This document shows positions 14,853-34,513 of a DNA stretch of 34,513 bases, in pieces. The number at the start of each line of letters is the position of its first letter. The first letter of the stretch is position 1. The position numbers were made by a program, and so were the translations under genes. The notes beneath the pieces are model-generated. The model was not told where the DNA came from and did not search any database. It saw only the letters and a list, made by a program, of their open reading frames with translations. This DNA is from Desulfovibrio sp. (GTDB taxonomy: Bacteria; Desulfobacterota; Desulfovibrionia; Desulfovibrionales; Desulfovibrionaceae), in contig JAITRF010000070.1 in assembly GCA_031288535.1 (NCBI GenBank), forward strand, positions 1 to 34,513. Reading direction: 5' to 3'.

Positions 14853-16046
14853 ATGAACAGCGCTGTTGCATACACGTCCGAGCTGGATGACGCTTTGGAA
14901 GCGGCCGCGCAACTTGCGGCGCAAATCCGTGAAAAACTTGAGTTGCAAAAGCATTCCGCCGGGATACTGCTTTGCGATGCGGATATGGACGGAGCGGCGG
15001 TCAGCGCCGAGCTGTCTAAGCTGCTCGGCAGCGAGATTCTGGGCATGACCACCCTGGCCACGCTTGACGCGGACGGCCATCACGAGGCGGCGGCGGTGCT
15101 CACCGTGCTTACGGCCGATGATTGCATTTTTTCCGCGTCCGTTTCCGCTTCCCTGCCCGGCGAAGACGCGCGGGCCGCCATAATCGAGGCGTACCGGGCG
15201 GGCGTGCCGGCGGAGGCCGCGCCCGGGCAGCGGCCGGGACTGCTGATGGCCTTTTGTCCTTACGGGCTGCCCTTTTCCGGAGACCTCTACCCCGCCGCGC
15301 TTTCCGCGGCCGCCGGAGACGCTCCGGTCATAGGGGGGGTCGCCTCGGACGATTACGACTATGAGCGGGCAAGGGTCTTTCTCTCCGGGCGCTCCTATAA
15401 GGATGCCATGGTCCTGCTCGGCCTCTGGGGCGCGGTCAGCCCCGTATTTTCCATCCGCCACGTGACCTCGCGCTTTGCCGAGCGCATCCGCAGAATAACC
15501 GAGGCCGAGGGCAACATAGTGCGCCGGGTGGGCGACGAAACTTTCGTGCAGTATCTTGAGGGGTTCGGCTTGAATACCGACGTTTCCGACCCTCTGCTCG
15601 CCTTTACCTGCTACCCCATGATGCTGATCAGCGACTCCGGCGACGAGGAAACGCCGCTTATGCGCCATATTTGCGGTTTGAACCGCGAAGACGGCTCCGG
15701 AGCCTTTTTCGGGGACGTGCCTGTAGGCGCCCTGGCCAACATCTGTCTCATCAACAAGGACGACCTGGTGCGCGCCTGCCGGGAGTCCATGGGCTCCCTC
15801 CTTGAAGCGGCCGCCGCGCGTCCGGAATATACGCCGTCCACCATCCTGTGCATTTCCTGCTGCGGGCGGGCCGTCATCCTCGGCGCGAACGCGGGCGCGG
15901 AGGGCAAGGCGCTTTCCGAGATGCTGCCGCCCGGAATTTCCCTTGCCGGCGCATACTGCCTCGGGGAGATTTGTCCGACTTTCTATAAGGACGGCAAGGC
16001 CTTGAACCGGTTTCACAACTGTTCCATCACCTTTTGCATGTTCTAG
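14853..16046 (+). CDS. FIST N/C domain sensor protein
   Basis: A soluble protein of 397 residues with GAGG six bases before ATG 14853. The layout is that of FIST proteins. The N-terminal half contains SAGILLCDADMDGAAVSAEL, LGSEILGMTTLA and DAPVIGGVASDDYDYERARV. The C-terminal FIST_C half (FAERIRRITEAEG... to LCISCCGRAVILG and LAGAYCLGEICPTF) has several cysteines (ISCCGR, YCLGEIC). FIST domains are thought to bind small ligands such as amino acids and usually sit next to or inside histidine kinases or chemoreceptors. The next gene is a hybrid kinase without its own periplasmic sensor, so FIST is probably its input. Confidence 0.85.
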   Translation: MNSAVAYTSELDDALEAAAQLAAQIREKLELQKHSAGILLCDADMDGAAVSAELSKLLGSEILGMTTLATLDADGHHEAAAVLTVLTADDCIFSASVSASLPGEDARAAIIEAYRAGVPAEAAPGQRPGLLMAFCPYGLPFSGDLYPAALSAAAGDAPVIGGVASDDYDYERARVFLSGRSYKDAMVLLGLWGAVSPVFSIRHVTSRFAERIRRITEAEGNIVRRVGDETFVQYLEGFGLNTDVSDPLLAFTCYPMMLISDSGDEETPLMRHICGLNREDGSGAFFGDVPVGALANICLINKDDLVRACRESMGSLLEAAAARPEYTPSTILCISCCGRAVILGANAGAEGKALSEMLPPGISLAGAYCLGEICPTFYKDGKALNRFHNCSITFCMF

Positions 16047-16216
16047 TATGCTGTAACGCTTGAACGCGGATCAAGCAGCGTACCAGCCGCCGGGCGACAA
16101 GCCCGGCGCGGCGGCGAAGCCGCAGGAGCAAAGCAAAAACCACGTTTTTTGCTTTGCGATCTTATCGCTTGAAACGAAGCGGATGCACAGTTTTAAGCGA
16201 TACATGGCGCCAGGGC
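16047..16216 (+). repeat. Dispersed repeat family B, copy 1
   Basis: About 170 bp similar throughout to 32341-32520. Shared landmarks are ATCAAGCAGCGTAC, CGCCGGGCGACAAGCCCGGCG (8-bp stem), GGCGGCGAAGCCGC, GTTTTTTGCTTTGCGATC and AGTTTTAAGCGATA. The last segment pairs with TATCGCTT. It is non-coding, with at least three stem-loops. It starts one base after the FIST stop codon. Confidence 0.85.
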
Positions 16217-29523: not shown

Positions 29524-30567
29524 TCACAAAGCGACAAAATGTCTTTTCGCTTTGCCGGCGCCGCCTGCGGCGGCCGGTGCGGTTTCGCCGAGGGACTGGA
29601 GTTTGTCTATAAATTCCTCCAGTTCTTCTTTGCTGTTATAGGTAAAGCTGACCCGCCCCCTGTCTTCCCGGCCGGTGACGCGCACCGGCATCCGCAGGCA
29701 GGCGCCGATGCGCGTCTGCAAATCCAGCAGGACAGCGCTCCGGTTTTTTTTCCCGATTTCGCCTTCCGCGTTTTGCGCCTGCGGCGCGGCGGCGCCTGCC
29801 GTGCTCCCTTGTTCGGGGTGGAGAGCCGCAGTTTTTTCGCCTTCTTCACGGACCGGGTCCCTCTCCCGCGCTTGGTCCAATCCGCCTTTTTCTTTCCAGA
29901 GAGCGGCCAGGCCTTCCGCTTCGCGTACCGACAGGCGTCTGTCCAGGATGAGGTCCTTGAGTTTTTCCTGCGCGCCGGCTTCAGGTACGCTCAACAGCGC
30001 CCGCGCGTGGCCGGGGCTCAATCTGCCGTCGGCCAGGCAGGAGCGCACTGTCTCCGGCAGGGTGAGCAGGCGCAGACTGTTGGCGATATAAGGCCGGCTT
30101 TTGCCGATTTTCCCGGCCAGTTCGTCCTGGCTCAGTCCGAATTCGTCTTTGAGAATTTGCAGGGCGGTGGCTTCCTCCAAAGGGTTCAGGTCTTCGCGCT
30201 GCAAGTTTTCGATGAGCGCCGAAGCCAGAGTGTCCTGTTCGGAAAGGACGCGCACATAGACCGGCACTTCCTCCAGGCCGACCATTTTGCAGGCGCGCCA
30301 GCGGCGTTCGCCGGAGACGATCTCGTATTTTCCCGGTTGCGCGGTCCCGGCGGGTCGAACGAGAAGCGGTTGCAGCAAACCTTGGCTGCGAATGGAATCC
30401 GCCAGCTCATCCATGCTTTTGGCGCTGAACTGGCGGCGCGGCTGTCGCGGGTTGGGCACGAGGTCTTCAAGCGGCAGCGTGCGCAGCCCGGTGACATTTA
30501 CGCTGTCCCGTCTTTCCCGGATCAGTGCGTCCAGGCCTTTGCCCAGACCGGTTATGTTTGCGGCCAT
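29524..30567 (-). CDS. parB: Chromosome-partitioning protein ParB
   Basis: 347 residues. ParB is a CTP-dependent clamp that loads at parS and spreads. It has the conserved start GLGKGLDALI, the CTP-binding boxes PNPRQPRRQF and GERRWRA (86-92), ENLQREDLNP (120-129), a central HTH (DELAGKIGKSRPYIANSLRL) and a C-terminal dimer domain after a variable linker (about 215-280) rich in Ala/Glu/Lys. Four perfect parS sites lie 1.5-3.7 kb upstream. It is separated from parA by 754 bp of repeat DNA, whereas the two genes usually adjoin. Confidence 0.97.
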   Translation of the reverse strand: MAANITGLGKGLDALIRERRDSVNVTGLRTLPLEDLVPNPRQPRRQFSAKSMDELADSIRSQGLLQPLLVRPAGTAQPGKYEIVSGERRWRACKMVGLEEVPVYVRVLSEQDTLASALIENLQREDLNPLEEATALQILKDEFGLSQDELAGKIGKSRPYIANSLRLLTLPETVRSCLADGRLSPGHARALLSVPEAGAQEKLKDLILDRRLSVREAEGLAALWKEKGGLDQARERDPVREEGEKTAALHPEQGSTAGAAAPQAQNAEGEIGKKNRSAVLLDLQTRIGACLRMPVRVTGREDRGRVSFTYNSKEELEEFIDKLQSLGETAPAAAGGAGKAKRHFVAL

Positions 30568-31289: not shown

Positions 31290-31324
31290 AGGGCAGTCCA
31301 GCTTTTCAAAGTGAAACTGCTTTA
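31290..31324 (-). repeat. Fragment of the dispersed element at the end of parA
   Basis: Read on the minus strand, AGCAGTTTCACTTTGAAAAGCTGGAC matches stem H1 of the dispersed family. It overlaps the parA stop codon and may act as its terminator. Confidence 0.5.
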
Positions 31325-32092
31325 GTCTCTGCGTGGGGGTTTACGCAGGACGACTTCTTTGGCCAGACCGAGGTAGGCGTCCGCCCCTTTGGATTTTATG
31401 TCGTAGTGGATGATAGATTTGCCGTGGCTGGGCGCTTCAGACAGGCGGACGTTTCTGGGGACCACCGTTTCGAAAAGGCGGTCCTGAAAGCATTTGCGCA
31501 CCTCGTTTTTCACCTGGCGCGTCAGTCTGTTGCGGGTGTCATACATGGTCAGCACGACTCCCAGCAGCGAAAGGCCGGGGTTCAAGCGTTTTTTCACCAG
31601 GTCGAAGGTGTGCAGGAGTTTTGCCACTCCTTCCAGCGCGAAATATTCGCATTGCAGGGGAATGAGCAGCTCCCTGGCCGCGCACAGGGCGTTCAAGGTC
31701 AGCAGGCCCAGAGAGGGCGGGCAGTCCAGCAGGATGTATTCATAGCGGCTTTCGAGCTGGCGCAGAACTTCGGCCAGGTAGTATTCCCTGCCGATCTTGT
31801 CCACCAGTTCCATTTCAACGGCCACCAGGTCGGTGGTGGACGGCAGGACCGACAGGAAGGGGTATTTCGTCTCGACAATGGCCTGGGTCGCCAATTCCGG
31901 CTGAAAAAAGCAGGGATAAATATTGAATTGCCCCGCGCTTACCTCCAGGCCGCTGGTGGAGTTGGCCTGCGGGTCGCAGTCCACAAGCAGCGCCTTTTTC
32001 TCCATGATTGCCAGAGAGGCGGCCAAATTGATGGCCGTGGTCGTTTTCCCCACCCCGCCTTTCTGATTGGCAATGGCAACGATTCTGGCCAC
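31322..32092 (-). CDS. parA: Chromosome-partitioning ATPase ParA (Soj)
   Basis: 256 residues. It drives origin segregation with ParB on the nucleoid. Deviant Walker A KGGVGKTT (residues 11-18), LLVDCDPQANSTSGLEV, YILLDCPPSLGLLTLNAL and GVVLTMYDTRNRLTRQV are all intact. I prefer GTG 32092 over ATG 32098: GAGGA abuts the ATG directly but lies six bases before the GTG, and the GTG start gives MARIVAIANQKGG, the standard N-terminus. A parS site lies 21 bases upstream, so ParB could regulate this promoter. Confidence 0.96.
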   Translation of the reverse strand: MARIVAIANQKGGVGKTTTAINLAASLAIMEKKALLVDCDPQANSTSGLEVSAGQFNIYPCFFQPELATQAIVETKYPFLSVLPSTTDLVAVEMELVDKIGREYYLAEVLRQLESRYEYILLDCPPSLGLLTLNALCAARELLIPLQCEYFALEGVAKLLHTFDLVKKRLNPGLSLLGVVLTMYDTRNRLTRQVKNEVRKCFQDRLFETVVPRNVRLSEAPSHGKSIIHYDIKSKGADAYLGLAKEVVLRKPPRRD

Positions 32093-32112
32093 AAGCATTC
32101 CTCGGGTGAGAT

Positions 32113-32128
32113 TGTTTCACGTGAAACA
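32113..32128. promoter_or_regulatory. parS site 1
   Basis: Perfect 16-bp TGTTTCACGTGAAACA, the canonical chromosomal parS. It lies 21 bp upstream of the parA start, within its promoter region, and not inside the repeated module. Confidence 0.97.
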
Positions 32129-32285
32129 TGCTGTCGGTCCCGGTGCGACTTATTCGAATTTCAAATCAAAACCGCATCCATGCAGGTTTAATTTGTCGGC
32201 TGTGTCGGGAACGCGGTCCCGTACAGCCTCTCGAAATGCTTCGCATATCGGTGTGACATCCTGTAACGCTTTCCATTTCCAGATC

Positions 32286-32340
32286 AAAACTGAGAGCATT
32301 TTGATCCGGAATTAGGCTTGAGACCGGCGTTTGACGGCGA
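32286..32340 (+). repeat. Decayed fragment of the dispersed hairpin element
   Basis: GAGCATTTTGATCCGG...AGGCTTGAGACCGGCGTTTGACGGCGAAGC recalls the 5' part of the element at 14547. The stretch 32129-32285 before it has no gene. Confidence 0.4.
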
Positions 32341-32520
32341 AGCTAGTACGCTGTAGCAATTAAAAATGCAGATCAAGCAGCGTACAAACCGCCGGGCGAC
32401 AAGCCCGGCGCGGCGGCGAAGCCGCCGGAGCAAAACCGCGTTTTTTGCTTTGCGATCGTATCGCTCAAAACGGAGCGGAGGCGTAGTTTTAAGCGATATA
32501 TGGCACCAGTCCGCCTTGCG
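32341..32520 (+). repeat. Dispersed repeat family B, copy 2
   Basis: Second copy of the 16047-16216 element with the same hairpins (CGCCGGGC/GCCCGGCG and TATCGCT...AAGCGATA) and the TACGCTG...CAGCGTA pair at 32346-32381. It sits directly before the first parS module. Confidence 0.85.
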
Positions 32521-32530
32521 ATGGGCAGGC

Positions 32531-32747
32531 TCTATTTATTATGCGCGAAGGATAAAGTCAAGCTGACGAAAACCATTGCCCCTGCCTCCACGCCTTGCCG
32601 ATCGGCAAAGGCAAGGCTTCCGGCCGCAAACAGTGCTTGCGTGAAAATGTTTCACGTGAAACATTTTGCGCTACCTTCGACGGAGTTCGGGGCAAAGCCC
32701 GGATTAAACCGCGACTTCTATAAGTAGCGGCTCCTTAATTCGCGCAT
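32531..32747 (+). repeat. parS module R1 (about 217 bp)
   Basis: Starts with TATTTATTATG, then CATTGCCCCTGCCTCCACGC, a CCTTGCC/GGCAAGG stem, CTTCCGGCCGCAAAC, parS, and TTCGGGGCAAAGCCCGGATT, ending in GCGGCTCCTT. It is nearly identical to the next module, with a period of 217 bp. Confidence 0.9.
32648..32663. promoter_or_regulatory. parS site 2 (in module R1)
   Basis: Perfect TGTTTCACGTGAAACA, flanked by GTGAAAA and TTTTGCGC. The palindrome thus extends to AAAATGTTTCAC/GTGAAACATTTT. Confidence 0.97.
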
Positions 32748-32964
32748 GCGAAATTTATTATGTACCAGGGCAGGCCAACCGGGCGAAAGCCATTGCCCCT
32801 GCCTCCACGCCTTGCCGATCGACAGAGGCAAGGCTTCCGGCCGCAAACATTCCTTGCATGAAAATGTTTCACGTGAAACATTTTGCGCTACCTCCGGCGG
32901 AGTTCGGGGCAAAGCCCGGATTAAACCGCGACTTCTATAAGTCAGCGGCTCCTTCCCTGTATGA
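32748..32964 (+). repeat. parS module R2 (about 217 bp)
   Basis: Tandem copy of R1 with few differences: GATCGACAGAGG for GATCGGCAAAGG, CATTCC for AGTGCT. Conservation includes the hairpins flanking parS, not only the parS core. Confidence 0.9.
32865..32880. promoter_or_regulatory. parS site 3 (in module R2)
   Basis: Perfect TGTTTCACGTGAAACA, 217 bp from site 2, with the same AAAA/TTTT flanks. Confidence 0.97.
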
Positions 32965-33070
32965 AATTGTTTCAAAAGAAAAGGCACGGCGGGAAGCGAT
33001 CTCTTCTCCTATCCCGTCCACAAGCGATCAGGAGCGCTGGCTAACCCTGGAAAAACTTATCAGGGTGTAG
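32949..33070 (+). pseudogene. C-terminal gene fragment joined to parS module R2
   Basis: Open frame ending TAG at 33068-33070 with plausible coding content (LYEIVSKEKARREA; STSDQERWLTLEKLIRV). Its 5' part runs into repeat DNA and the parS site. It is probably the 3' remnant of a gene cut by module duplication. Parent family not recognised. The following 33071-33402 holds a C-rich tract (about 33128-33165, CCCCAG and CCTCTG repeats) and no supported gene. Confidence 0.4.
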
Positions 33071-33402
33071 TCCGCTCAAAAATAGAAAAGCATACACACT
33101 CTGGTTTACCAAGGAAATTTCTCCTGCGCCCCAGCCCCAGCCCCCAGCCTCTGCCTCTGCCGCTATCCGCCTCCGTTGCCCCTGTGGTCAGGGGCCGCTA
33201 CGCTCTCCGTTCCGCTCCGCTTTATTGCGCCCATGACCCCCGTGCGCGGCTCCGGCCTATGTTTCTTACGACGGCTGCTCCAGGGGAATTTTTCTTTGGG
33301 CATATACCGGAAACGGCAAATGGCCGCCAATGGACAGTCTTGCGGTTGTTTCAAAACGACAATATTATTAGGCAAAGAATTTCGCGTAGGAACCTTTTCA
33401 AA

Positions 33403-33813
33403 GTGATAGAAAACACTGTGAAATCATTACTGAAAGCTGTTACAGCCATCCTCTTGCGCCGAGCGAAACAGCCCGCCACATCGCCGGAGCAGGAGCGCAG
33501 GCGGCAAATAATTGAAAGCGACTATGGCCGGATGGGCGGATGGTATGTGGAGCACAATGGTCGCCGTATCGCCGCCTTGGCCGAACCGCAGTGGGAGGAC
33601 ATGTTTTGGGTAAGCTATGCAATTGAACCGTTAACCGAGGACGCAGAAGAACGCAGGCAACTGCTGGAGACCGATGCATTTTGGCTGACGGAATTTGTTT
33701 ACCGCAGCAAGCAATTTGGCGAAGTCGCCGACAACGCTATGCCTGCTTTGCATCCTTTTATCAGTCCGGGTCGTGTCAACATGCGCGGTCTGTATCTGAC
33801 CATTGATACTTGA
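33403..33813 (+). CDS. Hypothetical protein (unknown family)
   Basis: 136 residues from GTG 33403, with AGGAA about ten bases upstream. The frame is open further upstream but without coding character. After a short basic, amphipathic start (ENTVKSLLKAVTAILLRRAK) comes a compact domain: IIESDYGRMGGWYVEHNGRR, EPQWEDMFWVSYAIEPLTED, TDAFWLTEFVYRSKQFGEVA and PALHPFISPGRVNMRGLYLT. It is Trp/Tyr-rich and looks like a real, conserved protein. I cannot name the family. It sits between parS modules R2 and R3 with another unknown gene 103 bp downstream. Confidence 0.6.
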   Translation: MIENTVKSLLKAVTAILLRRAKQPATSPEQERRRQIIESDYGRMGGWYVEHNGRRIAALAEPQWEDMFWVSYAIEPLTEDAEERRQLLETDAFWLTEFVYRSKQFGEVADNAMPALHPFISPGRVNMRGLYLTIDT

Positions 33814-33916
33814 CTCGTGCGAGGCAGGAAAGCAAAAATACTCCTGCCCACCAAGGAGATAGCAATAAGTCCGTTTTCAGAAAATTCACGACTAAGGAGG
33901 CAGGCATACGGGCCTA

Positions 33917-34180
33917 ATGGACACGGGCTTTCAAAGCGGCCAGAAGGGCATCGTACCCTTGGAACATGGTTTCTATTATCTCCTTAGAATCATTGAGAGA
34001 TATTATAATATCCAGTTCACGGCGGAGGATGGCGGATGGATCACAGTGGACGGCAAGGAGTATCAGGTTCACTATGTGGATGAAATGCAATTGAGTAACT
34101 CATTGAAATATCTATTGGAAGTACAGAGGGGAAAGCCATCTAAAAAAATAAATCTGTGTTTCCTCAATGTTGAGATTATA
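33917..34180 (+). CDS. Hypothetical protein truncated by a parS module
   Basis: ATG 33917 opens a frame with credible coding up to about 34180 (MDTGFQSGQKGIVPLEHGFY; YLLRIIERYYNIQFTAEDGG; ITVDGKEYQVHYVDEMQLSN; KYLLEVQRGKPSKKINLCFL). From there the frame enters parS module R3 and the further translation, which includes ENVSRETF from the parS itself, is repeat-derived. The native C-terminus is therefore lost. AAGGAGG lies 16 bases upstream, rather far. Family not recognised. Confidence 0.5.
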
Positions 34181-34310
34181 AGGGGCAACGCTTCCGACCG
34201 CAAACATTCCTTACGTGAAAATGTTTCACGTGAAACATTTTGCGCTTCCTCCGGCAGAGTCTGGGGCAAAGCCCCGATTAAACCCCCGGTTCCTTTAAGC
34301 CCGCGCTATA
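34180..34310 (+). repeat. parS module R3 (3' part only)
   Basis: Matches the second half of R1/R2: CGCTTCCGACCGCAAAC, parS, TTTTGCGCTTCCTCCGGC, GGGGCAAAGCCCCGATTAAA. It is more diverged than R1 and R2 are from each other. It is followed at 34313-34370 by text resembling the start of a further module (ATTATTATATG, AGCATTGGCCCCTGCGTCC). Confidence 0.85.
34222..34237. promoter_or_regulatory. parS site 4 (in module R3)
   Basis: Perfect TGTTTCACGTGAAACA with the same AAAA/TTTT flanks although the surrounding module has diverged, which suggests selection on the site. Confidence 0.97.
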
Positions 34311-34337: not shown

Positions 34338-34513
34338 TCAAGTGGGCGACAAGCATTGGCCCCTGCGTCCGCGCACCTGTTCGCCGATGGTGGAAAACTC
34401 GGATAAGATGTGCTGCAAAAAGTCCGCGCACAGGTCCGCCGCTGCGGAATTTGCCAGCAGTCGCTCCAGTGGGGGGAAAAAGACGTGCAGCGCTCCGTTC
34501 CTGAACTGAAAGG
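34338..34513 (-). CDS. C-terminal end of an unidentified protein (5' part outside window)
   Basis: The minus-strand frame is open from the window edge to TGA at 34340-34338. It reads FQFRNGALHVFFPPLERLLA, NSAAADLCADFLQHILSEFS and TIGEQVRGRRGQCLSPT. The first part looks like native coding. The last residues (RRGQCLSP) overlap DNA similar to the beginning of the parS modules, where the same strand reads AWRQGQWLSPG. The modules may have arisen from the 3' end of this gene plus its downstream parS. Family not recognised. Confidence 0.5.
   Translation of the reverse strand, partial: FQFRNGALHVFFPPLERLLANSAAADLCADFLQHILSEFSTIGEQVRGRRGQCLSPT

Follow-up and report, generated by a model that had tools for sequence, protein, structure and literature searches.

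A four-site parS cluster in Desulfovibrio sp. with a probable origin in tandem duplication of the region upstream of parA

How did four perfect parS sites come to be packed beside a single parA gene on the chromosome of an uncultured Desulfovibrio sp.? Both the variation in parS number and the drivers of parS clustering over evolutionary time are treated as open in the available text of a ParABS review (PMC7333895), and one answer appears to be readable at the locus described here, where tandem duplication apparently multiplied the region upstream of parA, with parS as the only part that later stayed intact. We hold it very probable that the cluster is a chromosomal parABS centromere enlarged by tandem duplication of the region from parA to the neighbouring gene, here called gene U. 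The value of the locus lies in the presence of an unduplicated sister species for comparison and of two array versions in one assembly. The analysed stretch of 34,513 nucleotides (the window) is the whole of contig C10 of a 2.83-Mb, 153-contig metagenome-type assembly. No earlier description of this parS repeat or duplication was found in a literature search with subscription journals mostly outside its range.

The parABS locus and its parS sites

The parA gene (31322–32098, minus strand) encodes a ParA/Soj-type ATPase of 258 amino acids (Pfam AAA_31, E 1.3e-59), whose best named matches come from Desulfovibrio and Desulfovibrionaceae MAGs and whose orthologues were found in 29 of the 31 genomes searched, its own genome counted. 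Adjacent to it lies parB (29524–30567, minus strand), encoding 347 amino acids with the Pfam domains ParB_N (PF02195) and HTH_ParB (PF17762) and, at residue 86, the CTP-binding motif GERRWRA, which conforms to the pattern GERRxR. This adjacent pair, with its ParA-ATPase, ParB_N and HTH_ParB domains, has the composition of a chromosomal ParABS system. Both parA and nusA occur once in the assembly, and no Rfam RNA was detected in the window at gathering thresholds.

On the other side of the array, the window ends within the 3' part of gene U (34338–34513, minus strand). The remainder of this gene lies on contig C79 (L153), where its reading frame spans 1–855 and is followed by coaBC, a cbiG-like gene, hemL and ahbB. 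The order parA, gene U, coaBC is found in the genus and the family wherever one contig spans all three. A label of "UDG-like" for gene U received no support from Pfam or NCBIfam and was dropped.

Four 16-bp sites in the window, at 32113, 32648, 32865 and 34222, match the parS consensus TGTTTCACGTGAAACA perfectly, in agreement with the original prediction. They fall within 2.1 kb near parA, and when up to three mismatches are allowed these four are still the only parS sites in the window, against a chance expectation of 0.07. parS1 (32113–32128) precedes the parA start codon by 15 nt. A parS placed some 15–35 nt from the start of parA recurs in this genus, in the window and in eight relatives (G002, G005, G006, G007, G008, G012, G013 and G014), a pattern which suggests that ParB may act on parAB expression. 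The rest of the genome holds five further, isolated parS sites, two perfect and three with one mismatch (L028 6754, L029 11730, L030 9872, L031 9780 and L032 11547), each within an ORF of at least 80 amino acids and devoid of the flanks that surround the clustered sites.

Anatomy and ancestry of the repeated unit

Module R1 (32559–32725) carries parS2 at 32648–32663, and module R2 (32776–32942) carries parS3 at 32865–32880; the two are 93% identical and stand in tandem at a period of 217 bp, as had been predicted. The third copy, R3 (34184–34299), has lost its left part: homology begins at 34184, the right two thirds of the module are retained, and identity is 88% over 101 nt. It is thus more diverged and yet keeps a perfect parS4 (34222–34237), which also bears out the prediction. 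Sites 2–4 were further said to share one stem-bearing module. They do lie in copies of one module, with the reservation that R3 is partial and lacks the CCTTGCC left arm.

The same prediction left site 1 outside the family, and here the alignments point the other way. In a whole-genome search the module's left part aligned with the start of parA and parS1 at 79% over 80 nt (E 8.6e-13), and since the left part thereby copies the parA start, parS1 belongs to the family. The parA starts of G006, G005, G008 and G012 align to the left part in the same register, and the boundary of the match falls 43 nt into the parA coding sequence both in this genome and in G006. The first 14 codons of parA (32056–32098, minus strand), homologous to the modules here and in G006, thus appear to be the parental segment (P) that was copied into every module. 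The P match is short, comprising about 43 nt of coding sequence plus the leader, which counts against the duplication account.

At the opposite end, the spacer between modules resembles the native stretch from parS4 to gene U (67–70% over about 150 nt, E 1e-13 to 1e-17) and matches G006 as well. The match passes the gene U stop codon and stops about 34 nt inside the U coding end, at the parental U segment that was the source of the module copies (34341–34374, minus strand). A further copy of this segment, U', runs from spacer into the gene U 3' end ahead of R1 (32530–32590) and is 73–77% identical to native U in both the window and G006. Judged from these alignments, the unit is best described as the entire parA–U intergenic region together with the gene ends on either side, and its tandem copies meet at U'-to-P' junctions. 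Assembly collapse or a false tandem, which had been raised as a possible artefact, is excluded: the longest exact repeat within the array is 45 bp, shorter than the 119-bp overlap between contigs, so the tandem is no artefact of the assembly graph.

The likely ancestral state is preserved in the closest relative, G006 (ParA 96%, CoaBC 85% identity), in which one contig carries parA, one parS, gene U and coaBC, and hence a single unit. From the parA start to U, its sequence can be aligned end to end, over 409 nt (E 1e-25), to one unit followed by native U of the present genome. Relatives carry one to three parS sites upstream of parA. Duplicated flanks around paired parS sites were absent beyond chance in G001, G008, G018, G015, G039 and G022, and the same check gave the same result in G005, G013, G010 and three named MAGs or genomes; the unit duplication is therefore particular to this genome among those sampled. 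The modules are at least as close to the parS1 region of G006 as to that of their own genome, so the duplication could predate the split between the two, in which case copies would have been lost in G006.

Between R2 and R3 lies a 1.23-kb insertion (32954–34183), which replaces 92 bp of a second version of the array, described below, and is missing from that version. It contains an ORFan of 131 amino acids (33418–33810, plus strand) for which 58 related genomes, the plasmids and NCBIfam yielded no relative; a longer ORF gave a sub-threshold Pfam match only. A second ORF, starting at 33917, runs through parS4. At the left edge of the insertion, TTCCCTGTATGAAATTGTTTCAAAAGAAA (32953–32981) looks like the left portion of a module whose parS has decayed (72% over 29 nt) and is possibly a dead fifth site.

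Taken together, the preferred scheme starts from the 5' end of parA, a parS, a spacer and the 3' end of gene U. An illegitimate exchange would have joined the 3' coding end of gene U to the 5' coding end of parA, creating a unit of about 217 bp with the order U', P', parS and spacer. Repeated events, in an order that we infer rather than read directly, would then have placed three extra units beside the native parS1. The parA and gene U fragments would have decayed, through a frame-breaking deletion in one copy and an insertion that removed the left half of another, while the extended parS palindrome would have been kept letter-perfect, with the flanks of the unit as passengers. Each parS presumably loads ParB-CTP clamps that slide outward, and four sites in 2.1 kb may raise ParB loading for ParA-driven segregation and SMC recruitment. 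Lying so near the parA start, parS1 could in addition couple ParB binding to parA expression, a layout that recurs in relatives.

A second array version and rival readings

A second array, of three modules (R1', R2' and R3') spaced exactly 218 bp apart, lies at the end of contig C11 (L027), the contig of the rimP-nusA-infB operon. The same 119 bases occur at the end of C10 (34395–34513), at the end of C11 (11421–11539) and at the start of C79 (1–119), and such an exact merge of two contigs into a third points to a sample that contains the locus in two versions. The C10–C79 join is, judged by G006, the ancestral one; the left side of C11 is ancestral too, since G006 retains the small ORF next to rimP. 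The copies on C10 and C11 are positional orthologues, with four sites supporting R1=R1' and R2=R2' against one that supports a within-contig grouping, and six specific sites supporting R3=R3'.

Homology between the two contigs starts at the edge of a dispersed repeat, family A (32146–32311), with about 25 copies in the genome. Copies of this family are 76–98% identical and stand also at several contig ends, where they may break the assembly. Adjoining it upstream of the parS array is a copy of family B (32343–32510; about 18 genome copies, 84–92% identity), of which another copy lies at 16043–16213. C11 is probably a second version of the same locus, either a co-occurring strain variant or a rearrangement, with rimP presumably linked to the array via the dispersed repeat by a misjoin or by a real rearrangement. 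A true second locus on one chromosome could also account for C11, though less probably.

When the six copies of the module are compared, 24 of 24 columns of the 24-bp palindrome AAAATGTTTCACGTGAAACATTTT show no variation, as against 54 of 86 columns in the flanks (Fisher p 9e-5), and the longest invariant run, 27 columns, was reached in 10 of 20,000 shuffles. Outside this core the copies diverge by 5–22%. The parA-derived part is not retained as coding sequence, as R3' has a one-base deletion and R3 lacks the left half. These observations are consistent with duplication first and selection on parS alone thereafter, although the identical cores could stem partly from gene conversion rather than from selection alone.

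This conservation bears most directly on the main rival, in which the unit is neutral and the extra sites persist by chance or unequal exchange with no benefit beyond parS1. Such a history is unlikely on balance but deserves to be taken seriously. In Pseudomonas aeruginosa one oriC-proximal high-affinity parS is sufficient, according to the available part of one report (PMC4368675), so the benefit of four sites may be small, and the one to three sites of the relatives fit the same picture. Against neutral persistence stands the parS palindrome, the most conserved stretch in copies differing elsewhere by up to 22%. A variant that goes further than the preferred reading supposes an actively changing centromere whose parS number is tuned within the species by repeated unequal exchange and insertion, with a functional copy of the array placed beside rimP in part of the population by a rearrangement of the origin region at a dispersed repeat; this we regard as rather doubtful.

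The original prediction had proposed that the module may be a mobile or amplifying centromere unit in which the flanking hairpins also matter. On a mobile reading, the module would insert parS at new places in the chromosome, and C11 would supply the second such place, beside rimP. Spreading of parS by module duplication is borne out, and the spread is local. The three-module array joined to the rimP-nusA-infB contig, with its left limit at a repeat of about 25 copies, would suit a mobile element, but that array runs into the same native gene U through the exact 119-bp overlap with C10 and C79, so that C11 shows no lone module but this very locus, or else a duplicate of the locus in full. Its copies are, moreover, orthologues by position of R1, R2 and R3, and the five other genomic parS sites carry no module. 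Module DNA is confined to this locus and its C11 version among the 15 genus genomes searched; the 14 other genomes gave only parA-start and short parS or hairpin-motif matches, and no module was found in the plasmid and phage collections. We consider a mobile unit very improbable. The prediction's own counter-scenario, flanks unique to this locus and copies left by one recent duplication, agrees with the confinement and the local duplication, and disagrees with the divergence between copies in that the event cannot have been very recent.

Hardly better placed, and in our estimation very improbable, is the idea that the hairpins are functional parts of an elaborated centromere and that selection acts on the module as a whole. 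Five copies retain both arms; three of these have an 8-bp stem and a fourth has a nearly perfect one, and R2 and R2' fold somewhat better than shuffled sequences (z about -2). Against this, no compensatory pair was found among the module copies and the covariation term is unfavourable (+2.89). R3 and the parental parA start lack stem 1 (CCTTGCC/GGCAAGG), and in the other copies the stability of this stem reaches z values of just -0.1 to -1. The predicted stem 2 (GGGGC/GCCCC) does exist, but it measures only 4–5 bp, is broken in R3', and its motif occurs also away from parS; the isolated parS sites elsewhere in the genome have neither stem. Enlargement of a chromosomal centromere by tandem duplication, with the flanks as passengers, remains the reading that we prefer.

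Relation to known centromere clusters

Multiplication of centromere sites as tandem units beside a par operon is familiar from plasmids, such as the sopC centromere of the F plasmid, where the repeats are short and regular and serve plasmid ParB types. The present unit differs in that each 217-bp copy reproduces an intergenic region surrounding parS of the universal chromosomal type. The secondary replicons of Deinococcus radiodurans likewise have direct-repeat arrays upstream of parAB with a role in partition (PMC7671480, available text); those arrays, however, belong to secondary replicons.

Among chromosomal systems, the four high-affinity, oriC-proximal sites parS1–4 of the Pseudomonas aeruginosa ParABS are alike in number, and no tandem unit is described for them in the accessible portion of the source (PMC4368675). 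Streptomyces coelicolor and Listeria innocua have up to 20–23 parS sites close to the origin, as stated in the consulted sections of the review (PMC7333895). A close counterpart is Myxococcus xanthus, in which many chromosomal parS are also packed upstream of parA: 22 sites in 3 kb, the first some 4 kb away from parA (PMC3899335), or 22–24 sites (PMC3899335, PMC3778016), in the available text of these papers. The original statement that chromosomal parS sites are normally scattered single sites is too strong in view of these clusters and of the one to three sites near parAB in the relatives. The present array differs from that of Myxococcus in having four sites in 2.1 kb, one of them in the parA leader, and copies that still contain recognisable parA and gene U fragments. 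An account of how the Myxococcus cluster originated was not found in the same portions of the two papers (PMC3899335, PMC3778016). The four-site cluster is thus of an ordinary centromere-cluster type, and what is unusual about it is an origin legible from the sequence.
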